Virus record (IMG/VR): IMGVR_UViG_3300031754_000231
Location: 1 to 26,605 of that record
DNA from: a virus
Length of the DNA: 26,605 bases
Strand: one strand, 5' to 3'
The notes under the pieces are model-generated. The model saw only the letters and a program-made list of their open reading frames with translations. It did no database searches and was not told the DNA's origin. The first letter of the stretch is position 1, and every line of letters begins with the position of its first letter. This document shows, one piece after another, positions 764-24,799 of this stretch. The position numbers and the translations under genes are program-made.

Positions 764-865
764 TTAGTCGTCGTCTTCTTCGGCGCACTCTTCGATGTCA
801 TCGGCCTCAGAAGATTCGTCTTCTTGCAGGATGTCTTCGGAGTCGTCGATCGCGTCGGGCATCAT
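764..865 (-). CDS. Tiny highly acidic protein (33 aa)
   Basis: This is a 33-codon frame beginning MMPDAIDDSED and ending EEDDD, with roughly half its residues Asp or Glu and one Cys. Its first ATG overlaps the TGA of the ATP-grasp/HAD gene as ATGA, the coupling pattern used throughout this window, and a second ATG follows immediately. It fills the gap before the fibre gene. No family is recognised. Acidic microproteins can be DNA mimics or chaperone-like partners, but nothing here shows that. A weak AAGAAG/CTTCTT hairpin (751-765) overlaps its stop. The overlap and fit support reality; the short length keeps confidence moderate. Confidence 0.5.
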   Translation of the reverse strand: MMPDAIDDSEDILQEDESSEADDIEECAEEDDD

Positions 866-2439
866 GTCACGAGTTCTCCGGTATTGGCTTCAACCTCTGT
901 CGCGCGGTCATCAAAGAGTTCCACCATTTCGTAATCTTTTTCCGCCGTGACTTCCAAGGACAAACCAAGGTTCTCGCGCAACCAGTCGTACACTTTGACG
1001 ATCTCTTGGTAGTCTTGCGGGACAGCGGCCCGCGCAGTGAAGATGCGCACTTCTTTGCCGCTATTCACCATGCGCTTGATGCGTGAGACCATCTTAGGAA
1101 TCGGCTCGCCTATGGACTTCTGTCCTGAGCGGTGCATGGCCAGAGTTTTATCTAAATCGACTCCCACGTATCCGCCGTCGATGTCGCCCATCAACTTGGC
1201 CAGTTCTCTGAAGTCTTTGAGGCATACAGAACCCAAATCAGTTCGCATCTGTTTGTTAGGAATGCGCAGCCCAGCGCAGATACGGTAGGCTCGCGCAAAG
1301 GCTTCTCCAATGCTCTGGCCGTGTCCGTTTACCACCCCAAGAATCCCGTAGCCGCCCGAGCTCTCCAGTTCGCCGGCAGCATTCAACTGCACGTCCTGGG
1401 GATAGAACCATTTGCGATCGGCAGGGGATAAGCCTGCCATTGGCACCCGTTCCTGCGCATGGAATTGCTCGGAAGGCCAGGGCGGAATAGTGAGTCGCAC
1501 GCCGGCGCCGAACCCGTCCAGTAAGGTTTCCTTGCAGTCGTACCCGCGCGCAAGGCTGTCCAGGAAGTAGCCGAAGTCGAAGGCGCATAGGGTCGTTAGC
1601 AGCGTCGGGAAGGCGTCGTAGCCCATACGGGGAGTAAATTCGAGCGCGTAGCAGCCTCGTTCGTTCACCACGGAGTTGACATCGATCGCGCCGCGGTACA
1701 TGCGTTCTTCAAGTAGTCTGGTCAGCGGGAGGAGGAGTTCCTTTACCAGCGGGTCCTTCATCGAGCACTTCCACACGAGGTTCCCGGTACAGCCGCCGGA
1801 TGGCCCGAGGTCGTCGTTCAAGAACTGCTTGCGCTCGATCGTGTGGTTGAACATCCCCTCAACCCAAGTCTTGCCGTTGAACCAGCCCTCGGTCGAGACA
1901 GCCACGCCTTGGATGTATTCCTGGATGACCAGTTCGATTTCATCGCCGCCGATCAGCGTATGGAAGTGCTCGAGCATCTTCACGGCGTCTTCCTGGTCGT
2001 AGGAGACGTAGGACGGGATGACCCCGCTCGAGTGACCTTCCGGCTTGAGGACAACCCTATCCCCGTCCCCGAGCTTCTTGATCGCTTTCACGGCGTCATC
2101 CCAGGACGAAACTCTAACAGACTTGGGAGTCTGGATTTTGGCCTGCTTGAAGACTTCTTCCGAGTACTTGCGGTCGGATTCCAGTTTATCGCAAAAGGAA
2201 CTTCCGCCGACGGTGGGCACGCCTGCATCGCGGTAGGTGTCGAGCAGTGCGCCAGCTCCGGTGCAGTCGGCGATTACAGTTTGTCCAAAGGAATACTCGG
2301 TAGCGGTGTCGATGAGTCCGTGGCAGCGCTTATCGGCTTCGGTATCACGGATCCAGATGCGGGCGTCGTGACCCTCTTCCTTGAGGCGAAGGGCGAGACC
2401 TGTTCCGTCGCCCCCTTCGCTCAAGAGAAGAAAGCGCAC
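862..2439 (-). CDS. PurD-like ATP-grasp ligase fused to a HAD-family phosphatase
   Basis: The protein is 525 aa from a GTG. Residues 1-105 resemble the N domain of phosphoribosylamine-glycine ligase (beta strand then GGDGTG). Residues about 106-400 look like an ATP-grasp fold: VVLKPEGHSSG supplies the ATP-binding lysine region and LEFTPRMGYD matches the metal-binding E-F-N-x-R-x-G stretch of PurD. Residues 424-525 are a HAD domain with DLDKT (428-432) as motif I, IFTAR as motif II and DDR near the end as motif IV. ATP-grasp enzymes join a carboxylate to an amine through an acyl-phosphate; HAD domains usually remove phosphate. The substrate is unknown, and the Asn of EFN is replaced by Thr, so true GAR synthetase activity is doubtful. 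The start sits only 6 bases after the upstream stop, without a clear Shine-Dalgarno. Confidence 0.85.
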   Translation of the reverse strand: MRFLLLSEGGDGTGLALRLKEEGHDARIWIRDTEADKRCHGLIDTATEYSFGQTVIADCTGAGALLDTYRDAGVPTVGGSSFCDKLESDRKYSEEVFKQAKIQTPKSVRVSSWDDAVKAIKKLGDGDRVVLKPEGHSSGVIPSYVSYDQEDAVKMLEHFHTLIGGDEIELVIQEYIQGVAVSTEGWFNGKTWVEGMFNHTIERKQFLNDDLGPSGGCTGNLVWKCSMKDPLVKELLLPLTRLLEERMYRGAIDVNSVVNERGCYALEFTPRMGYDAFPTLLTTLCAFDFGYFLDSLARGYDCKETLLDGFGAGVRLTIPPWPSEQFHAQERVPMAGLSPADRKWFYPQDVQLNAAGELESSGGYGILGVVNGHGQSIGEAFARAYRICAGLRIPNKQMRTDLGSVCLKDFRELAKLMGDIDGGYVGVDLDKTLAMHRSGQKSIGEPIPKMVSRIKRMVNSGKEVRIFTARAAVPQDYQEIVKVYDWLRENLGLSLEVTAEKDYEMVELFDDRATEVEANTGELVT

Positions 2440-9886: not shown

Positions 9887-10366
9887 TCATGCGTACTTCT
9901 GCCCTACTTCCACTTTTCCGCAGAGCACGATTTGCGCGATCGAGAGTGGCCCGGCATTGGCTGGTCGCGTGATCGAAAGCTGCAAATTCTGCGCCGTCAG
10001 GCGAAGCCCCTGGACCGTGGTCAGGAGAACCCCGGTCGGAATCTGGTTTCCAAGGTTCACGGTTATCAAGGATTCGACGGGATTGCCGTTGCCGACAACT
10101 GTTCCCTGGTCGGTCGTGCCGGAAAGGGCAAACGTCGCCGTGAACGGCCCAAGGTCGCGGTAAGTAAGAATCATCCGCGTGACGCTCGGTATCCTTCCCG
10201 GCAGGACTTGTTCCACCTTGAACTTGTAGACCGAAGGATTGATCGGATCATTAAAACCTCTTCCGGGGTCGAAAGCGTAATAGCCCGTCACTCCCGATTG
10301 CGCGTTCTGCATGGGGAACAAATAAATCTTGGTGCTGGCCGCTACGCCGCCGAAAGATTGGCTCAT
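9887..10366 (-). CDS. Hypothetical tail accessory protein (159 aa)
   Basis: The ATG at 10366 overlaps the stop of the beta-propeller/Hint gene as ATGA, so its translation is coupled to that tail protein. It is beta-rich with Gly, Thr and Val throughout (TKIYLFPMQNAQSG, LTYRDLGPFTATFALSG, LQLSITRPANAGP), one Cys, and no membrane or catalytic motif. Coupling suggests it is made in a fixed ratio with the upstream protein and may assemble with it. If the upstream Hint domain is autocatalytic, this is the nearest candidate partner, but there is no direct evidence. Confidence 0.75.
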   Translation of the reverse strand: MSQSFGGVAASTKIYLFPMQNAQSGVTGYYAFDPGRGFNDPINPSVYKFKVEQVLPGRIPSVTRMILTYRDLGPFTATFALSGTTDQGTVVGNGNPVESLITVNLGNQIPTGVLLTTVQGLRLTAQNLQLSITRPANAGPLSIAQIVLCGKVEVGQKYA

Positions 10367-12063
10367 GGCTTCACCGGGCGGTTGTTATGCGCCACGGCCC
10401 CATTCTCCAGGATGAAATGCCGGTCCTCTTCGTCGTCGCTAAGAACGTGGAGGTTGTAGACCGTGCCCTTCCAGTTCTCGACGCGCTTGAGGTCCGGCCA
10501 CGCCTTCGCGGCCTCAATCCAGTCGTCTTCTTTCCAAATGCCGTGTTCTTCGGTGACCAGTTCGCCGTTGCCCATGTCCAGCATGGTAGCGGAATAGTCT
10601 TCGTGGACGACCAACACCGCCTTGCGGATCCCGTTGCGGTTGACGATTTGAAACTCGATTCCCCATGGCAATTCGTCAAACCGCTGTAAGCCCAGCGGGG
10701 TGACAACACGCACATTGCCGGTAAAGCAGCCGAATCCTCCGCCGCCTCCGATGCCTCCTCCACCACCACCTGAACCGCCGCCCGTTGCCGGAGTTCCCGA
10801 CCCGGCGCTGACCGACGGAGGAAAGAGTCCGGGAACCCCGAGCGAAGTGAGGATCCCGGTCCAGCACTGTTCCGGACGTCCGGTAATCAAGAGTCCTTGG
10901 GTATCGATAACCGCCCAGTTCTTGTCTTCGACCGAGTACCAGTAGTGGCGCGTAAAGGTTTGCAAGGGAATCGAGATGATGTACAGCACGTAGGTATAGC
11001 CGAAGATCAAGAAGGGGATGAGTTGCCCCACGGGCACGCCGCTGGTCCTGCTAAGGTCGGTCATAATCGCATCGCGCGCGGTGCCGCCAATGGCCTCAAA
11101 CGAGGCTACGCCCATCTGGTAAATCTGTTCGGCGGAAACGAAGCACCCGATGGCACCGTACTGCGCGATGCTCCAGGGGTAGACGTTCCCAATGCCGCGG
11201 TCGGAAGCCCACAAGTGGTCGAACTGGAACGGAGCAATGCCTCTTCCCGTAGGCGTGACCTGGGTGATGCCGGAACTGCGGAACACGAATCCTTGAATGC
11301 CGATGGTGAAAAAACCGGTGATGCTGTCGGGCACGTCCAGGAAGTCGTTCTCGCCGGCGTTGGTATTGGCAGCGAAATCCCAGACTAGCGGCAGTCCGTT
11401 CGCGCTCCACCAGATACGATTCGGGAAGCTGTAGACCACGCCCGTACCGTTGTCGAGCACCGAGACGCTGGCTAAGAGTAAATGGTTGTCGAGTTCGGCG
11501 AGGTACACTCCGCCGATACTAAGCGGCCCGGTTGAGCCGGGAATGACCGTAGGCGCATCGGCAACGGGAACCGCGGCAATCGATGTGGAACCCGGAGCTC
11601 CGGCGTTCGCAGCCGAAGGCGCATTGGCGATGCCGTCCCAGGAAGCCAGGAACGTTCCACCGTTCGTGTAGTACAGCAGATTGGCAAACGTGCGGTAACT
11701 GACCGGAATGCCGACAAGGAGCGCGGGCCCGCCGAGGATGGCCCACGGCTGCGAAGAACCCGGGGGAGTGCCGGCTGGCGCGAGTTGCCACAAGCCGCGC
11801 GTGGTAAACGCCACGGTATGCGCGATGCCGTTCACATCGTTGAAGGTGGTCTGTCCGAGTCCCAGGTTCGACTGATCGGTGCCGGGAAATTCCAGTTGGA
11901 AGACTGGAGCGGAGCGCAGTTCCGCATTCCGGAACATGAACCCGGAAGTGAAAGGAGTGGCGGTATCGGGGATTAGAATTTCGGGAGCTTGAACATGTAA
12001 CCCGGTGAACGGGCCAGAATACGTGATCTCAAAGTACCCTGTTGCATCAATCTTGACCGACAC
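10363..12063 (-). CDS. Beta-propeller tail protein (nozzle/hub-like) with C-terminal Hint domain
   Basis: 566 aa from a GTG at 12063, behind GAGGAAGG. Residues 1-420 show repeated short beta blocks (LLYYTNGGTFLASWDG, HLLLASVSV, GFVFRSSGITQV, AIGCFVSAEQIYQMG). Their order resembles the propeller-type tail nozzle/hub of short-tailed phages such as P22 gp10; this is pattern-level only. A Gly-only linker follows (about 425-445), then a Hint domain from Cys446 to Asn560. Hint features seen: CFTGN at the start, TEEH with His507 as the block-B histidine, and AVAHN at the end, followed by NRPVKP. The protein is therefore likely self-processing or anchored through its C-terminus. The downstream gene is coupled by ATGA. 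Confidence 0.88.
   Translation of the reverse strand: MSVKIDATGYFEITYSGPFTGLHVQAPEILIPDTATPFTSGFMFRNAELRSAPVFQLEFPGTDQSNLGLGQTTFNDVNGIAHTVAFTTRGLWQLAPAGTPPGSSQPWAILGGPALLVGIPVSYRTFANLLYYTNGGTFLASWDGIANAPSAANAGAPGSTSIAAVPVADAPTVIPGSTGPLSIGGVYLAELDNHLLLASVSVLDNGTGVVYSFPNRIWWSANGLPLVWDFAANTNAGENDFLDVPDSITGFFTIGIQGFVFRSSGITQVTPTGRGIAPFQFDHLWASDRGIGNVYPWSIAQYGAIGCFVSAEQIYQMGVASFEAIGGTARDAIMTDLSRTSGVPVGQLIPFLIFGYTYVLYIISIPLQTFTRHYWYSVEDKNWAVIDTQGLLITGRPEQCWTGILTSLGVPGLFPPSVSAGSGTPATGGGSGGGGGGIGGGGGFGCFTGNVRVVTPLGLQRFDELPWGIEFQIVNRNGIRKAVLVVHEDYSATMLDMGNGELVTEEHGIWKEDDWIEAAKAWPDLKRVENWKGTVYNLHVLSDDEEDRHFILENGAVAHNNRPVKP
10384..10728 (-). other. Hint / bacterial intein-like domain (within the tail protein)
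   Basis: This 115-residue segment has the full set of Hint landmarks: N-terminal Cys (nucleophile for the N-S shift), TxxH in block B, a Tyr-Asn-Leu-His beta strand in the block F region, and C-terminal His-Asn. There is no homing endonuclease insert. The residue after His-Asn is Asn, not Cys, Ser or Thr, and only six residues remain, so ordinary splicing is not possible. BIL domains with this arrangement are known to cleave at one or both ends. Confidence 0.8.
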
Positions 12064-14372: not shown

Positions 14373-15335
14373 CTATGGACCGAAGCTGCCGAACGTTCCC
14401 CATGGAACGGTGGCGCCGACGCTGAACCGCTGCGTCGAGAGGAACAAGAGCACTTGGGTCTGGAAGTCGTCGTCGGTCTGCGCCGCGAGACGCTCTCTCC
14501 AGTAGAACTTCATCTGGTGGCCGGACTTCTCGGCGATCAGGAACCACGCCGACGGGCTGGTCAAATAGTTGAGTTCGAGGCCCTCAAGTTTGTCCGCGAG
14601 CAAGGCGTTCAGTTCGTTGTCGTTGGTGCCGGGCTTTCCTGGCGAGCCGAGCAGTTCCCTCACAATCCAGCGCAACTCTGGCGGGTGAATGAGGTGGCGG
14701 GGCTGGACGTGAATGGGGATGCCGCGGCCATCGGGCATGCGCGTGAAGATGTTGATGGCCTGCTGCAATGCCGTGAAGCTCAAATCCGTATCCGGGCTGG
14801 GGCGGTTGGGGTAGGTGCCCGCCGAAGAGATGATCGACGAGATGCCCGGAGCGAAGGCCGTAGCTTCGGTGCCGCCAAGCAAAGGCTGCGCGGTGTTGAA
14901 TAGAGAAATTCCGGTGTTGGTCAGCACCGTCGAGCCGCCCAGATTGAAGATCGAGGCGCTTACTGCTTCTTGCGCAAAGAGTGCGGAACGGGCATGGGAC
15001 TTAGGCATCTCGCGGATGATGCCGTACTTGTCGTCGGCGATCAGTTGGCGGGTGACTTGACTGAGCAAACCGTACTGCAGGTGGACGTATTTCTTGGTGC
15101 CGCCCTGCAGGATGCCGTCCGAGAGCGGACGGGTACCTTCCGGCATTTCCGGCATCGGGCCGGTCCCGGAAAGTTCGTAGTCGATTTCGTAGGCGTCCTC
15201 GCTGTCCATCTCGTTCAGGAAATGCGGGTATTGCGCCATGCGTGCCTTGAGATCGAAGAACTGTACGAAAATGTGCCTCAGACCAGGCGCAAGAAGCGGC
15301 GGAAAGTTTGCGCGTGACATCTGTGTGATTGGCAT
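14373..15335 (-). CDS. Major capsid protein (HK97-fold candidate)
   Basis: 320 aa from ATG at 15335 with GGAG upstream. It follows terminase, portal, scaffold and decoration genes, the canonical place for the coat protein. The N-terminus (SRANFPPLLAPGLRHIF) and an early acidic arm (EMDSEDAYEIDYELSG, the E-loop position) resemble coat proteins of the Mu gpT-like/HK97 group. Next come a helical spine (YGLLSQVTRQLIADDKYG) and a C-terminal segment with LTSPSAWFLIAEKSGHQ and YWRERLAAQ, the P-domain-like part. Its size is usual for this fold without extra domains. It ends in TAG. Confidence 0.85.
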   Translation of the reverse strand: MPITQMSRANFPPLLAPGLRHIFVQFFDLKARMAQYPHFLNEMDSEDAYEIDYELSGTGPMPEMPEGTRPLSDGILQGGTKKYVHLQYGLLSQVTRQLIADDKYGIIREMPKSHARSALFAQEAVSASIFNLGGSTVLTNTGISLFNTAQPLLGGTEATAFAPGISSIISSAGTYPNRPSPDTDLSFTALQQAINIFTRMPDGRGIPIHVQPRHLIHPPELRWIVRELLGSPGKPGTNDNELNALLADKLEGLELNYLTSPSAWFLIAEKSGHQMKFYWRERLAAQTDDDFQTQVLLFLSTQRFSVGATVPWGTFGSFGP

Positions 15336-17293: not shown

Positions 17294-17329
17294 CTAGGAC
17301 GATACGCCAAAGTCCTAGTACCTAGTCAA
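17294..17329 (-). promoter_or_regulatory. Candidate promoter with inverted repeat before the scaffold-like gene
   Basis: On the minus strand TTGACT (17329-17324) is followed after 19 bases by TATCGT (17304-17299), a poor but possible sigma-70 pair. A perfect 7-bp inverted repeat CTAGGAC/GTCCTAG (17294-17300 and 17312-17318, 11-base loop) encloses the -10 region. It has no T-run after it, so an operator or leader hairpin is likelier than a terminator. It would separately drive the head genes after the HNH insertion. Confidence 0.35.
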
Positions 17330-17751
17330 GCACTTTTTTCGATTTGTGCTCTCAATGCTCTATTCCACCAATTTCTCTTCCACCCCTCCGGGATTACTAA
17401 GCGCAATTGTTTTGGATGGGAATACTTCCGAAGCCGCCAATCTGGGTCTTTTACGGGTTGCCCGTTTCGATGTAGCGCCTTATGTTGAAGTGGTGTTACA
17501 GCCAGAAGATGTTTTGGATTCACGCACAGGAAAGTTTCGCAAGTGTGATGGACTTGTAGGTCGTCAGATATATCTCCATGTGCAAGTTGGTAGCTGAAAC
17601 GGTGAGCTAGCATGTGCGTATGCTTTCTCAATTCCGTGTCAAAGAACCTATAATCACCATACCCTTTTGATTGAGTCCCGCCCGTCCACCACCAGCAGGT
17701 TTCAGTTTTGAGGACATAATTCCAGAAAGTAATTTTCTTGAGTAGGTGCAT
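17326..17751 (-). CDS. HNH homing-type endonuclease
   Basis: 141 aa. It contains CWWWTGG near the N-terminus, GYGDYRF, AHRFSYQLAHG, then VHHTC and CVNPKHL, the conserved HNH-3-type core: HH as the catalytic pair and Asn-Pro-x-His-Leu as the metal-binding arm. The ATG at 17751 directly follows the upstream TAA with only a weak GGAAAG site. Over 17341-17580 I counted 112 G or C in 240 bases (about 47%), clearly lower than neighbouring genes (60-70% in lines counted on each side), which suggests separate acquisition. Free-standing HNH genes of this kind nick DNA to spread themselves. It sits between portal and scaffold genes without splitting either. Confidence 0.88.
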   Translation of the reverse strand: MHLLKKITFWNYVLKTETCWWWTGGTQSKGYGDYRFFDTELRKHTHMLAHRFSYQLAHGDISDDLQVHHTCETFLCVNPKHLLAVTPLQHKALHRNGQPVKDPDWRLRKYSHPKQLRLVIPEGWKRNWWNRALRAQIEKSA

Positions 17752-18036
17752 TTACTGTATTTCTTTCCACGCTTTCAAATCTTCCTCGAAGCCGATATTC
17801 ATGCGAATGGCAGCTAATTGGCCGCGCAGAAAGTTTACTTGTTCCATGGTCTTGGCGCTGTGTTCGAGGCGGTAACTGAGGTCAGCGAGTTGGTCCGCCC
17901 ACTCCGCCTGGAGGAGTTTGTACCCCGGCTGGTCCACCAGAAGTTGCGCCGCCTCGAGTTGCTCCGGCGCTAAGAGCCTGGGCCAAAGCTGCGAGACGCG
18001 GGTCGGCTGCTCCGTTCGCTCCTTGCGTTTTGCCAC
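17752..18036 (-). CDS. Hypothetical helical protein overlapping the portal gene end
   Basis: 94 aa from GTG at 18036, behind AGAGG. The frame begins inside the portal gene's 3' end and overlaps it by 155 bases in another frame. It reads as a normal helical protein after the portal stop (ADLSYRLEHSAKTMEQVNFL, GFEEDLKAWKEIQ). A start later in the overlap (GTG in LLVDQ) is also possible. It is probably a small portal-associated factor, coupled to the portal by the overlap. The exact start is uncertain; the downstream half is well supported. Confidence 0.65.
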   Translation of the reverse strand: MAKRKERTEQPTRVSQLWPRLLAPEQLEAAQLLVDQPGYKLLQAEWADQLADLSYRLEHSAKTMEQVNFLRGQLAAIRMNIGFEEDLKAWKEIQ

Positions 18037-19936
18037 TTGGTTCAGCCTCTCCGAGATTCGGCTCTGGAGCATACGCCTCGGGCTGGTCGAATTCAAACTC
18101 TCGCAGCACTTGCCAGAAGAAATTATTCTGGCCTCGGGCGACGGCCATGAAGTACGCCTTGTGCTGGTCGGGGATCGCGGCATTCGAAATAGCCTGCAAA
18201 AGATTGGCCATGCCCATGTGGTGCTGGCGCAGAGTCATATTCAGCAAAAGAAGATTCTGCTTTCTTACTTCACGGTTCGCGGAAGCGGAACTTGCTCGTA
18301 TGGGGATTCTGATTTTGCGTTCCAGGAAATCGGAGAGCGCTTCAGCAAGAAGCTGGTCATCGACGCCGAAGAGGTTGCCTTTTCCGCCCGTGCCCATAGC
18401 TCCGTACATGTCGGTCGTAAGTGAAATCAGGCGTACATGCGAATGGCGGAAGTCGGACGTTCTATGTCCCACTCTTGAATTCGCATCCTGCATGACCGCC
18501 AAGGTGCCCATGGAGCCGAAGCGGCCTTTCTTGTCGGCGCTTCCTGCTCCCATGCCGGCGACGGCCGGACCTACTCCAGCCCTATCCTGCGCCTGGCGCT
18601 GGATCATGGTTTCGTTCTCGATCGAGACCGAGGACATATTCGGTTCGCCCACGCTGATGTGTTCGAAATCATCCTTGCGGAACGGAGCGCCGGCGCCGGG
18701 ATACATCTGGAAATTCCTGTCGATGTTCTTGTTGCCGGGGTCGATGCGGTTGATGCCGAGAATGCCGAAGGCCGTAGCGTCGTGGCGCTGGTTCTTGGTG
18801 GTGCTCAATTCTTCCTGGTAGTGATCGAGCATCCAGGCATAGCCTTTGCCGAGCTGGCCTTTTCTATCGTTAGAGAGTTTCGTCTTCACGATCGGAAGTT
18901 GGTTGTGCGGGATGAAGTTGAAGACCATGCGGAGCACGGTTTTCGTTTCGAAGTGGTACCACATAATAAGGCGGTACTTCACATCGTTGTGGAACCACGC
19001 GAAGTAGCACTCGTGGATGTCCCATTCGGCCATCGAGGAATCGTCCGAAGCGTCGAGGCCTTCCTTTTGCTGCGCTCTCCTCTTCGTTTCCGTGGGGCCG
19101 AAGCGGTCGGGGTGCGTGATGATCTTGTCGACGGCTTCTTTGGGATACATCTTGTCGGCCAAGCGTTCGGCAAGGTCGCGGCGGTCGAGCGTCAAAACGT
19201 GGTAGACCACGGCGGATTCGTCGAGGGTGTCCTTCTTGATGTCGAAGCCCACGTCCTCGTGCTCGAGGTTCACGACTTTCGGCCCTTTGTAGAGGACCGA
19301 TTCGCTCATCTCGGTTTTTTTGGTTTGCTCGTCGTAGCCGACGTATTCGGCTTCGATTCTTACTTCCGGACGGGCTTTAACGAAGGAGGTTCCGAGGCGC
19401 GCGCCATCGGCGAACCAGATGTTTTCGATGGAATAGAGGTTCAGTTCCGTGGGTTCATAGGCTGCGCAGTCCATAAACACTTCAAGCGCGCGGGCCTTTT
19501 CGATGTTGCGCTGCGCATCTTGCTGCTTCGCGGCCCGCGCAAGCCAGCGGTAGATGGCGATCGGGGAGGTCAAATAGATCAGCCCCATGACCCGGGCGGC
19601 GATGTCGTCGATGGTCTGCCCGACGAGTTGCACCACCAAGTTCGCGCAATTCGGAAAGGGAAAGGACTTCTCTTTTTCCTTAGGCTGGCCGTCGGCAATC
19701 TGTCTTAGCCGGGGAATCTCGTGCTTGTTCAGGCGTTCGAGTTGTTTCTGGTACACGCGAATCTTTTCATGCACCCACTTCCGGATGGCTTCGTCGACTT
19801 CCTTGCTGAACTGGGTGTCGTGCAGTTCAAAGGACCGCGAGCGGCGAAAACTGATTTTGGTGGGCGTGATGTCCTTGTCGGGGAGCGCGGGGGCTTGCTG
19901 CGGAATGGTCTCGGGAATCGGCGGAGCGGTGGCCAC
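17882..19936 (-). CDS. Portal protein (head-tail connector)
   Basis: 684 aa from a GTG at 19936, just after the terminase. Basic helical N-terminus (HEKIRVYQKQLERLNKHE), then FPFPNCANLVVQLVGQTIDD, which matches the common portal pattern of a Phe-Pro-Asn motif followed by a membrane-facing helix. A long central region contains WFADGARLGTSFVKARP and YAWMLDHYQEELSTT (portal stem-like), and a Gly/Pro/Thr-rich C-terminus likely disordered in the virion. Gene order, size and motifs support it. It forms the dodecameric ring through which DNA is packaged. Confidence 0.85.
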   Translation of the reverse strand: MATAPPIPETIPQQAPALPDKDITPTKISFRRSRSFELHDTQFSKEVDEAIRKWVHEKIRVYQKQLERLNKHEIPRLRQIADGQPKEKEKSFPFPNCANLVVQLVGQTIDDIAARVMGLIYLTSPIAIYRWLARAAKQQDAQRNIEKARALEVFMDCAAYEPTELNLYSIENIWFADGARLGTSFVKARPEVRIEAEYVGYDEQTKKTEMSESVLYKGPKVVNLEHEDVGFDIKKDTLDESAVVYHVLTLDRRDLAERLADKMYPKEAVDKIITHPDRFGPTETKRRAQQKEGLDASDDSSMAEWDIHECYFAWFHNDVKYRLIMWYHFETKTVLRMVFNFIPHNQLPIVKTKLSNDRKGQLGKGYAWMLDHYQEELSTTKNQRHDATAFGILGINRIDPGNKNIDRNFQMYPGAGAPFRKDDFEHISVGEPNMSSVSIENETMIQRQAQDRAGVGPAVAGMGAGSADKKGRFGSMGTLAVMQDANSRVGHRTSDFRHSHVRLISLTTDMYGAMGTGGKGNLFGVDDQLLAEALSDFLERKIRIPIRASSASANREVRKQNLLLLNMTLRQHHMGMANLLQAISNAAIPDQHKAYFMAVARGQNNFFWQVLREFEFDQPEAYAPEPNLGEAEPSGKTQGANGAADPRLAALAQALSAGATRGGATSGGPAGVQTPPGGVGGPTR

Positions 19937-19953: not shown

Positions 19954-21633
19954 CTACCAGCCAGTGACGCTAGCATGTCTTGCGGCAAATGTATTTTTCT
20001 GGTTCACGAGGTACTTGATGACGTCGTTGTTAGAAGTGGCGTCGAGCGTTTGGGGGACGTAGCCCATGCAGTCGAGCACGTCCACGGTGGGCGAGGCGGG
20101 ATACGCCAGATATTCGGAGATGAATTCGGTCTGGCTGCGGTGGCAGAACACGTTGCCGTTTCTAAATAACGGTTCGAGGGCTTCGATGCGGTTTTTCTTG
20201 GCGTTCGCGGAATTGTCGTAGGGGAGTTCGATGATGTGCACCGGCCACTTCACGCGGTTGTTCTTGTCTTCGAGGTAGAACTTCATCAAGTTTTGCGCCG
20301 CCACGGTTTCGAGGTACGCCGAGCGCAGTTCCCACTTTTCGGCGAGAGAGTAGAGTTTATCCACCAGGTCCGAATATCCGGTGGGCTTGGCCCACACTTC
20401 GCAGATGTAGACCCTTTGGCTTTCCGCATGGTAGCCCACGATCAGGATGACGTGGTTGGCGCGTTTCTTTTTCTTGGCGTGCGCGAGGTCCACGATCATG
20501 CGCTTGCTGAGAGCTCCGGCTTCGATGTTCTCGATGGTTTCGCCGTCCCGGACTTCGTGGTGGATTTCAAGGAAGTTGCGGAGGTCTTCTAGCGGAAGGT
20601 CGGGGCGGCTGGCCTGGTAGCGGAAGTAGCGCAACCATTCGGGTTTGAAGATTTGCTCCTCGGGAAGCATCGAGACGTTGAGCATCTGGTGGGCGTAGTT
20701 GTAGGGTCCCAGGCGGTTGCGGTAGCGCTCCAGCTTCTTCATGGTCCATTCTTCGGGGAAGATGGGGGTATTCGGGGGATGCAAGCGGCAGCAGCCGCCT
20801 TCGGCGGAATGCGTCTCCCACTTGAATTCTGGCTCGTGAATGCGGATCCAACTGTTCAGGTCATCGTGGCTCCAGCGGTTCCCGACGATCAGTTCCTCGT
20901 CGATCTTGTCGGCCATCTGGATGACGTTGCCTTCTTCGTCTTCGATGGGTTCCTGGTCGTAGACGCCGGTAATGAGGCGGTGGTAGTCGATGGTGTCTTC
21001 CATCACGATTTCGCTTTTGAGGGCGTCCCTACCCACCATGTCGTCTTCGATGATGAGGTCGAAGTGCTGCGACTGAATGGCCTGGCCCACGCCGCGGTAG
21101 GTGAAGGTCGCTTCGGCGCGGTCCATGGTGCGTTTCTGATACTTGGCCTTTTCGTTCCAGGTGGCGTCCGGAGGAGGAAGTATATCGCTGAAGGCTAGGC
21201 GGAACCTCGTGTTGTTCAGGAAATGGTTGTCCACGTTCTTGGCCATGATGGCGGCGTTGTCGCCGACTTCGGTGGCGATCAGAATCCGGATGTTCTGGTT
21301 GTGAATTCGCTTCATCCAGGCGATATAGGCATCGTCCATGCCGGCGGCGCGCATCAGCAGTTCGTCGTGGACGGTGAAGGGTAGCGCGCGCCACATGGCG
21401 TAGGCTTCGGTCACGCAGGTGGACTTGAAATGTCTACGCGGGATTTCGAGGCCCAGTTGTACGTTGTCGCGCTCGAGCGACCGCGTGATGCACTGGTAGT
21501 GGAGTTTCCTAACGCGCTTGCGTTTGAGGGTGAACTGGGTAAAGAAGAAGTGCGAAGCGAGGGAATTCAAACGGACAGCAGTCTTAAAGTGGTTTTCGTT
21601 GTCGGTTGGTACTGGAAGCATTTGCCAGCGCAT
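19954..21633 (-). CDS. terL: Terminase large subunit
   Basis: About 559 aa from the ATG at 21633, overlapping the upstream TAA (TAATG); a GTG 12 codons earlier is the alternative. The ATPase part shows a variant Walker A PRRHFKST (residues 65-72) and Walker B LIIEDD (193-198). The middle has PEEWTMKKLERYRNRLGP, a conserved terminase block. The nuclease part shows MIVDLAHAK (Asp382), YLETVAAQ (Glu442) and a late VDVLD. It pumps and cuts phage DNA at the portal. A separate small terminase was not recognised. It ends in TAG. Confidence 0.93.
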   Translation of the reverse strand: MRWQMLPVPTDNENHFKTAVRLNSLASHFFFTQFTLKRKRVRKLHYQCITRSLERDNVQLGLEIPRRHFKSTCVTEAYAMWRALPFTVHDELLMRAAGMDDAYIAWMKRIHNQNIRILIATEVGDNAAIMAKNVDNHFLNNTRFRLAFSDILPPPDATWNEKAKYQKRTMDRAEATFTYRGVGQAIQSQHFDLIIEDDMVGRDALKSEIVMEDTIDYHRLITGVYDQEPIEDEEGNVIQMADKIDEELIVGNRWSHDDLNSWIRIHEPEFKWETHSAEGGCCRLHPPNTPIFPEEWTMKKLERYRNRLGPYNYAHQMLNVSMLPEEQIFKPEWLRYFRYQASRPDLPLEDLRNFLEIHHEVRDGETIENIEAGALSKRMIVDLAHAKKKKRANHVILIVGYHAESQRVYICEVWAKPTGYSDLVDKLYSLAEKWELRSAYLETVAAQNLMKFYLEDKNNRVKWPVHIIELPYDNSANAKKNRIEALEPLFRNGNVFCHRSQTEFISEYLAYPASPTVDVLDCMGYVPQTLDATSNNDVIKYLVNQKNTFAARHASVTGW

Positions 21634-21794
21634 TATGTTTTTTTCTTGGCACGCCACTCTCTCATCCACTGTGTCGCGTGCAATCGGTTCTCTCTATTCC
21701 ATCTCTTCTTTTTGTTTGTCCGACATATTCTACACGCTCTTGAGCCGTCTACTTCGATACGCTTCCGAAAGCGCTCTGGTAGTCGTTCGATCAT
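21633..21794 (-). CDS. Small basic CxxC protein (53 aa)
   Basis: The ATG at 21794 overlaps the upstream TGA as ATGA, and its own TAA overlaps the terminase ATG. The protein is Arg/Lys-rich with one CxxC (RACRICRTNKKKRWN) and Trp in WMREWRAKK, a style seen in small HNH- or DNA-binding phage proteins. No full HNH motif is present. Its place before the terminase could suggest a small packaging factor, but this is only position. Confidence 0.65.
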   Translation of the reverse strand: MIERLPERFRKRIEVDGSRACRICRTNKKKRWNRENRLHATQWMREWRAKKKT

Positions 21795-21994: not shown

Positions 21995-22516
21995 TCACGC
22001 GGTCGTGTGCGCAGCGACTTTCTTTTTTAGGCGGCGGAGTTCGAGATGCCCGCGCACCCTGCAAATCGCTTCGCTCTCGTGCATGATGACGACGAGATAT
22101 TCTTTTTCCTCGCCTTGCGGAGTTTCTCCGCCGAGTTTCAACTGGTGACCGGCGTAGGACGGAAACATGATGGATACGCCGTTCTCGTGGCGTTTGACAT
22201 CCGGGCCGCAGGAAACGATGGTTCCGGTCGTGGGTTCGTTCTGGCGGTCTTCCGGAATGACGATCCCACCTTCGATCACCGTTTTTCCCTTGCACTCGGG
22301 GCAGAGAAGAGTTCCCCCTCCACGGCACAGCAAGCAGAGCGCATCGACGTTCACAATGCTCCTTCCAGATCCGAAGCAGTTCTCGCACTTGATTTCGCCC
22401 TTGCCGAGACAGAACGTGCATTCGTAGCCGGAGCGAAATTCGTCGCGGAGCAGAATAATGTAATCGCCAGAGGCTTCGAGTTCCAGCGGGCCGATGCGCA
22501 ATACGTTGTCAGTCAT
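21995..22516 (-). CDS. GroES-like co-chaperonin with inserted DnaJ-type zinc finger
   Basis: 173 aa from the ATG at 22516 (overlaps the previous stop by 8 bases; an upstream ATG at 22567 is possible but would overlap 59 bases). N-terminal ASGDYIILLRDE matches the first strand of GroES. Then four CxxC units with CTFCLGKG, CENCFGSG, CLLCRGGG, CPECKGKT (Cys 33, 36, 44, 47, 61, 64, 72, 75), the DnaJ zinc-finger pattern. EGGIVIPE follows, equivalent to the mobile-loop GGIVL of GroES, then TTGTIVSCGPD, FPSYAGHQLKLGG and EYLVVIMHESEAICRVRG, the GroES core. GroES caps the GroEL chamber; DnaJ fingers hold unfolded protein. A GroEL gene is not seen in the window. The tail is basic (LELRRLKKKV). Confidence 0.85.
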   Translation of the reverse strand: MTDNVLRIGPLELEASGDYIILLRDEFRSGYECTFCLGKGEIKCENCFGSGRSIVNVDALCLLCRGGGTLLCPECKGKTVIEGGIVIPEDRQNEPTTGTIVSCGPDVKRHENGVSIMFPSYAGHQLKLGGETPQGEEKEYLVVIMHESEAICRVRGHLELRRLKKKVAAHTTA

Positions 22517-23793: not shown

Positions 23794-24799
23794 CGCTCGA
23801 TCGATTCCGCTCGCCGACCAGAGCGTGAACTGTGTGGTGACGAGCCCGCCTTACTGGCGGCAGCGCAACTATAAAATCTCCGGGTAGATCGGACTCGAGC
23901 AAGCACCAGAAGTATATTGCGCGAGTCTCGTTCAGTGTTTCCGAGAGGTCCGGCGTGTCCTGCGTGATGATGGAACGCTATGGCTCAACCTCGGTGATAA
24001 ATGGGCTTCTGGCGGCAATGGCGGAGGAGGTTCATTCATGGAGAATCGCCAAGAGGCCTGGGCACACGCCAAAGATGCGAAGGGATGGAGAAGTCCTCCA
24101 GCGGGATATAAAGACAAGGATTTGGTCGGCATCCCATGGATGGTTGCTTTCGCGCTTCGGGACGATGGTTGGTACCTACGGCAGTGCAACATTTGGGCCA
24201 AGCCGAATTGTATGCCCGAATCGGTGACTGACCGTTCGACGGTCTCGCACGAATACATTTTTCAGTTGAGCAAGTCGAACGATTATTTCTATAACTCAGA
24301 CCTTGCGCGAACGCCGCCGATGCCTAGTACTGAAACTCGTTTGGCGCAAGACGTTGAAAATCAAACGGGCAGTGAACGTGCGAATGGGCAAGGCAAGACC
24401 AACGGCACCATGAAGGCCGTTAGGCGTTCTGACAAAGAGCGCGGCCACTCGAGACGCCACAACAGATTTAACGATAGATGGGATGCCATGAGCGAAGCCG
24501 AGCAAATGGCGAATGGAGCGAACCTTCGGTCTGTCTGGTGGGTGAGTCCAGCACAAACGACTGACGACCATTACGCGGTGATGCCGGAACAGATTGCAAG
24601 AATTTGTATTCTGGCCGGGTGCCCTGCTGGCGGAACGGTATTTGATCCCTTCTGCGGTTCGGGGACAAGTCTCCTAGTAGCCCGGAATCTGCAATGCCAC
24701 GCGATCGGCATGGACCTGAACGAAGCGTACCTGGCGATTGCGCAGCGGCGCTTACGTCAGGAAGTTTTCGACTTCAGTGCAGTTCCTTCCAGTCGATGA
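23768..24799 (+). pseudogene. Beta-class DNA methyltransferase interrupted by an in-frame amber codon
   Basis: The frame runs 344 codons from ATG at 23768 with a single TAG at 23885-23887. Before it: SPPYW (26-30), the catalytic motif IV. After it, in the same frame: RRVLRDDGTLWLNLGDKW, LVGIPWMVAFAL, DDGWYLRQCNIWAKPN, ESVTDRSTVSHEYIF, and near the end DPFCGSGTSLL (293 onward), the AdoMet-binding motif I. Motif IV before motif I places it in the beta class; SPPYW favours N4-cytosine, though N6-adenine is possible. The TAG falls where relatives usually have Gln (G-Q-IGLE), a single-base CAG to TAG change. TAG ends several other genes here, so it should stop translation. The downstream part alone (ATG 24038) lacks motif IV. 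No restriction partner is seen. Confidence 0.82.

Follow-up and report, generated by a model that had tools for sequence, protein, structure and literature searches.

The stretch of DNA analyzed here (the window) is a 26,605-base IMG/VR virus record, IMGVR_UViG_3300031754_000231, which carries on its minus strand a gene for a GroES-like protein containing a DnaJ-type zinc finger (finger-GroES; Table 1). The initial annotation read in the protein GroES strand 1 (DYIILLRDE), eight cysteines in four motifs, the segment EGGIVIPE, and the rest of the GroES fold. All of these are indeed present, in this order, in one unbroken frame of 173 amino acids (aa): the four CxxC motifs are C33-C36, C44-C47, C61-C64, and C72-C75, and GGIVIPE occupies aa 83-89, with GGIVIP at the position of the GroES tripeptide and the remaining Cpn10 barrel behind it. 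The fourth motif reads CPECKGK.

The Pfam Cpn10 profile matches aa 77-142 with 30.6 bits, above its curated cut-off of 21.1, while DnaJ_CXXCXGXG reaches 15.3 bits, below its cut-off of 32.7. The finger region (aa 33-78) is also matched by the BSD2_CRD and Anti-TRAP profiles, likewise under their cut-offs. The matches to Anti-TRAP and to antitermination-Q-like profiles, which describe cysteine-rich proteins, were judged to reflect the finger only and were set aside. No J domain was detected by Pfam in the 173 aa.

Table 1. Features of the finger-GroES gene and of the neighboring head and packaging genes in the window.
Feature	Positions	Strand	Basis or remark
Finger-bearing GroES-like protein gene	21995..22516	-	Single open frame, 173 aa + stop; Pfam Cpn10 3.5e-7
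N-terminal part, aa 1-27	22436..22516	-	Extra N-terminal strand(s) and GroES strand 1 DYIILLRDE (aa 18-26)
SGYE hinge, aa 29-32	22421..22432	-	Invariant columns in the 36-row alignment; low model confidence at aa 28-31
DnaJ/BSD2-type zinc finger (predicted), aa 33-78	22283..22420	-	Sequence; BSD2 structure and profile matches
Hydrophobic tripeptide I85-V86-I87	22256..22264	-	At the GroES IVL (GroEL-contact) position; alignment with two bacterial GroES
Remaining Cpn10 barrel, aa 95-156, without roof hairpin	22049..22234	-	Cpn10 profile, structure matches, hhalign
C-terminal extension, aa 157-173 (HLELRRLKKK...)	21998..22048	-	Past the GroES end; kept in the main clade
Terminase large subunit (TerL)	19954..21669	-	phrog_38, 1.1e-47; downstream of finger-GroES, same strand
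Portal protein	17882..19936	-	phrog_332, 6.1e-8; phrog_1216 (portal), 3.7e-7; next in the module
Major head protein, possible client	14373..15335	-	phrog_133, phrog_4523, phrog_371, 1e-7 to 1e-6

Folding of the single sequence gave an unusable model (predicted local distance difference test, pLDDT, of 30), and the model used here was obtained with a 36-row alignment of family members. Its mean pLDDT is 77.9, with the barrel and finger blocks mostly between 77 and 96. The values are low at the SGYE hinge, at aa 80-88, which hold the tripeptide loop and where this is expected of a mobile loop, and in the C-terminal tail, where they fall below 50 from aa 161. In the N-terminal part, which aligns with GroES MNIRPLHDRVIVKRKE, strands were modeled at aa 5-8, 11-14, and 19-24. 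The model matches Cpn10 with a Z-score of 11.1 over 84 residues covering both sides of the insert, and T4 gp31 with a Z-score of 10.0; GroES is also among the best matches and gp31 (1g31) is the top Foldseek match. Separately, aa 27-80 match the plant finger protein BSD2 (6ekb; Z-score 6.5, 2.4 Å, 52 residues, 36% identity), and hhalign to bacterial GroES gave 96.8% with an E-value of 2.1e-10. The protein is thus predicted to be a GroES/Cpn10 beta-barrel plus a separate finger, and the GroES barrel around the finger, on which the initial annotation made its proposal depend, was obtained.

The position of the insert was examined in an alignment with one bacterial GroES and with E. coli GroES. 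Strand 1 aligns as DRVIVKRKE in GroES and DYIILLRDE in the window protein, followed by the finger and then by GGIVL and GGIVI, respectively. From the tripeptide to the next conserved glycine there are 11 residues in both the window protein and E. coli GroES. Judging from these alignment positions, the finger is set into the mobile loop, in whose N-terminal arm it stands in for about six residues, while the C-terminal arm keeps its GroES length. The earlier placement of the finger before the mobile loop must therefore be amended: the insertion is at the loop base, as proposed, but within the N-terminal arm of the loop rather than ahead of it. The hydrophobic triplet is retained in most members of the family. 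In the same alignment, the roof beta-hairpin of GroES is missing between VSCGPDV and the strand NGVSIMF, although this hairpin is not a strict criterion for GroES, and gp31 also lacks it. At the roof-hairpin position, three other members (L036:3124-3768, L068:4680-5450, and L104:5049-5729; L numbers designate loci) carry a second knuckle of four cysteines (CxxC...CxxC). These members fall at three separate places of the family tree, so that the roof knuckle was gained more than once or often lost.

Searching viral contigs with the window protein alone retrieved no relatives. A pattern combining the last CxxC with GG-hydrophobic-P matched 14 stretches of IMG/VR, and translation showed eight of them to be true relatives. 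The alignment of these eight with the window protein led to 41 loci, to which others were added through a terminase-anchored scan and another pattern. After deduplication, the set comprises 60 distinct sequences whose finger region is readable, including the window protein, 54 of them with three or four CxxC motifs and six with two. No finger-less version was found among these 60 sequences, nor among phages related by their terminase. At E-values of 0.1 or below, Cpn10 and DnaJ_CXXCXGXG each match 35 of the 36 aligned members (best 2.4e-10 and 6.1e-8, respectively). Compared with solved structures, the family profile recovers Cpn20 (1.6e-16), GroES (1.2e-7 and weaker), and BSD2 (1.4e-6), as well as the zinc domain of E. 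coli DnaJ (1exk, 7e-4). Substitutions are strongly skewed to synonymous sites in finger and barrel alike, indicating purifying selection; between L016 and L017, the finger shows zero amino-acid changes at a synonymous divergence (pS) of 0.5. Chance is excluded, as the arrangement is conserved in 60 distinct sequences with purifying selection in both parts. The GroES fold with a DnaJ-type finger is borne out by the sequence, by family conservation, and by structure prediction. Ahead of the first finger cysteine, all 36 aligned rows read SGYE, an uncommon degree of constancy for a linker; most of these rows, however, were retrieved with a pattern containing SGYE, and other members read TGYE, TGFE, or SGME.

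The family belongs to uncultivated bacteriophages. No member was found in 50,697 records of isolated phages or among plasmids, and the family signature gave nothing in 84,980 bacterial and archaeal species genomes. Weak matches in Bacteroides phages and in a B. finegoldii plasmid were rejected, as those examined overlap genes of only 87-90 aa, too short to hold a finger; the one on the plasmid is annotated as co-chaperone GroES. The terminase scan of these genomes gave one contig, 47.7 kb long and assigned to the bin of a Sulfuriferula metagenome-assembled genome, on which a remote member was found, but the host link is weak because a phage contig can be mis-binned. The initial annotation knew of no description of this architecture, and we found it neither in the literature searched (a limited search, which is no proof of novelty) nor in PHROGs or NCBIfam, and it is absent among the listed predicted viral structures that match the model, whose identity to the query is at most 17%.

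The finger itself differs between members of the family. In the half fingers, which have two CxxC motifs, L047 and L002/L014 are read as having kept motifs 1 and 4 and lost motifs 2 and 3, while L046 cannot be aligned unambiguously. DnaJ holds one zinc ion with motifs 1 and 4 and the other with motifs 2 and 3; keeping motifs 1 and 4 would thus leave a complete zinc site in L047 and L002/L014. On a tree built without the finger (118 columns, with several forks open), there are at least four changes between half and full fingers. L046 and L047 branch from within full-finger members, which makes two or more reductions likely.

Nearly all loci share one genomic order, with finger-GroES, TerL, and portal following each other on a single strand, and TerL follows within about 2.2 kb of finger-GroES in 56 sequences. 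The gene was found upstream in 49 of 78 terminase-anchored loci; 23 of the remaining 29 hold too little upstream DNA to judge. In L120, L122, L125, L126, L128, and L130, enough upstream DNA is present and the gene is absent, and Pfam Cpn10 detected no ordinary GroES in these records. In L134 and L135, the finger-GroES gene is far from TerL and adjoins a gene judged primase/helicase-like by eye; in L051-L053, its surroundings yielded no TerL. Its usual position ahead of TerL and portal on the same strand points to a role in head assembly or packaging.

The protein shares with GroES, Cpn10, and chloroplast Cpn20 the barrel fold, the strand order, the hydrophobic tripeptide, the length of the loop that follows it, and a YAG-type motif after the GD strand, and differs from them by the finger of about 45 residues in the loop, the missing roof hairpin, and the N- and C-terminal extensions. 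To our knowledge, GroES lids are almost always minimal barrels. T4 gp31 and RB49 CocO are likewise phage-encoded GroES folds and act as phage substitutes for GroES, a replacement that we infer for finger-GroES; gp31 also has a longer loop. In contrast, gp31 has no zinc finger, identity to it is 15-22%, and the finger-GroES gene is tied to TerL and portal. Many medium-chain alcohol dehydrogenases (ADHs) have a cysteine zinc lobe inserted in a GroES-like fold, at another position of the fold. These enzymes (ADH_N) belong to the same fold superfamily, with weak ADH_N matches in 14 members and Z-scores of up to 7.5 between the model and related oxidoreductases, but finger-GroES has no catalytic domain and Cpn10 scores far better. 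The finger resembles the cysteine-rich domain of DnaJ (Hsp40 type I) in its four CxxC motifs set in CxxCxGxG-like units and in its profile matches; unlike DnaJ, the window protein has no J domain, no substrate-binding beta domains, and shorter loops between the motifs. The finger fold is shared with BSD2 and ZnJ2, plant and algal DnaJ-type finger chaperones without a J domain that have been connected with the large subunit of Rubisco (PMC5818400). BSD2, however, stands alone as a finger and is not built into a lid.

We favor, with moderate confidence, the reading that finger-GroES is a phage co-chaperonin that caps the host's GroEL to serve head and packaging proteins and contacts clients through its finger. 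Going by the fold, finger-GroES would assemble from seven copies into a lid like that of GroES. Through the kept hydrophobic tripeptide, this lid would bind the apical domains of the host GroEL and, in infected cells, take over from host GroES to allow the folding of phage head and packaging proteins. Each finger is predicted to hold two zinc ions. With part of the N-terminal loop arm replaced by a finger in every subunit, the seven fingers together would form a ring where the lid meets GroEL. There, the fingers would most likely contact clients, holding or guiding large or assembly-prone phage proteins at the rim of the chamber. By analogy, one chain would then join two steps of chloroplast Rubisco biogenesis, the Cpn20 lid followed by the BSD2 finger. 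That a single protein captures phage structural proteins, or holds them for assembly, with its ring of chaperone fingers at the GroEL seam and also encapsulates them, with fingers at both rim and roof in L036, L068, and L104, is a more tentative proposal, to which we give somewhat less than even chances. Several points weigh against the favored reading. The heptamer, GroEL binding, zinc, and client contact are what we infer, and the model is a monomer with a predicted template modeling score (pTM) of 0.56. Some members deviate from a fully hydrophobic tripeptide (GGIHIP, GGLAHA, and GGISHA), the insert could lower the affinity for GroEL, and without the roof hairpin the lid would have an opening at its top, unless this is filled by the extensions. 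In favor of the reading, no Cpn60/GroEL gene was found in 39 records, so that the partner would be the host's, but these records are possibly fragments and a phage GroEL may have been missed.

The second choice after client contact is that the finger only lengthens the mobile loop or sets the affinity for GroEL, giving a larger chamber; we consider this rather unlikely. The finger does sit at the loop base, the top Foldseek match is gp31, whose longer loop is thought to enlarge the cage, and the portal (684 aa) and terminase (571 aa) both exceed about 60 kDa and would be oversized clients. The variable finger size and the existence of forms with two CxxC motifs would also be expected if length mattered rather than a binding surface. 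Against this stand the four CxxC motifs, conserved with the glycine-rich spacing of DnaJ far beyond the needs of a spacer, and the purifying selection on the amino acids of the finger. The gene occupies the usual position of the small terminase subunit, sometimes ending beside TerL (L046, L062, L072, and L088), and Pfam gave no small terminase among the neighboring small open reading frames (ORFs) tested, which would suit a ring that binds DNA or terminase and replaces that subunit without acting on GroEL. We regard this as improbable, since the GroEL-contact tripeptide and the loop length are kept, L134 and L135 have the gene far from TerL, and DnaJ/BSD2 fingers bind proteins. A shade less probable still is a redox-switched lid, turned on or off as the cysteines lose zinc and form disulfides under oxidative stress: no redox-specific signature was seen, and the behavior of the related algal finger protein ZnJ2 speaks against it, as ZnJ2 could not reduce disulfides in an insulin assay and its formation of disulfides by oxidation was excluded (PMC5818400). 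Finally, an assembly error or frameshift joining two genes, the artefact of which the initial annotation warned, can be practically dismissed, given that the frame is unbroken, the identical join recurs in 60 distinct sequences from dozens of independent contigs, and purifying selection acts across both parts.

If finger-GroES caps GroEL as favored here, a conserved lid with a chaperone finger in the very loop that grips GroEL would represent a novel means of redirecting the folding machinery of the host, which the phage may thereby tailor to its own proteins. Such a lid would also be a natural test of how far the mobile loop tolerates an insert, and would unite in one chain, again by analogy, the two steps that chloroplasts split between Cpn20 and BSD2. 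In addition, finger-GroES marks a large group of uncultivated phages in which the proteins of the head and of packaging apparently require particular assistance in folding.

Other genes of the window deserve mention. The protein of 525 aa encoded at 862-2439 (minus strand) has a GARS-like ATP-grasp domain (PF01071, 1.4e-9) and a C-terminal stretch that matches a PHROG annotated as phosphoheptose isomerase and looks HAD-like by eye; its homologs occur in L051, L052, and L053, three loci where remote finger-GroES genes are likewise present. At 10363-12063 (minus strand), a virion protein (phrog_3287) ends in a C-terminus (GCFTGNVRVVTPLG ... FILENGAVAHNNRPVKP) that appears Hint/intein-like by eye. 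A DNA methyltransferase (phrog_67, 2.6e-36) is encoded at 24038-24799 on the plus strand, opposite to the structural module. Near the portal gene, positions 17326-17751 (minus strand) encode an HNH endonuclease (PF13392, 1.5e-6), and several relatives have similar ORFs between the terminase and portal genes or next to them.
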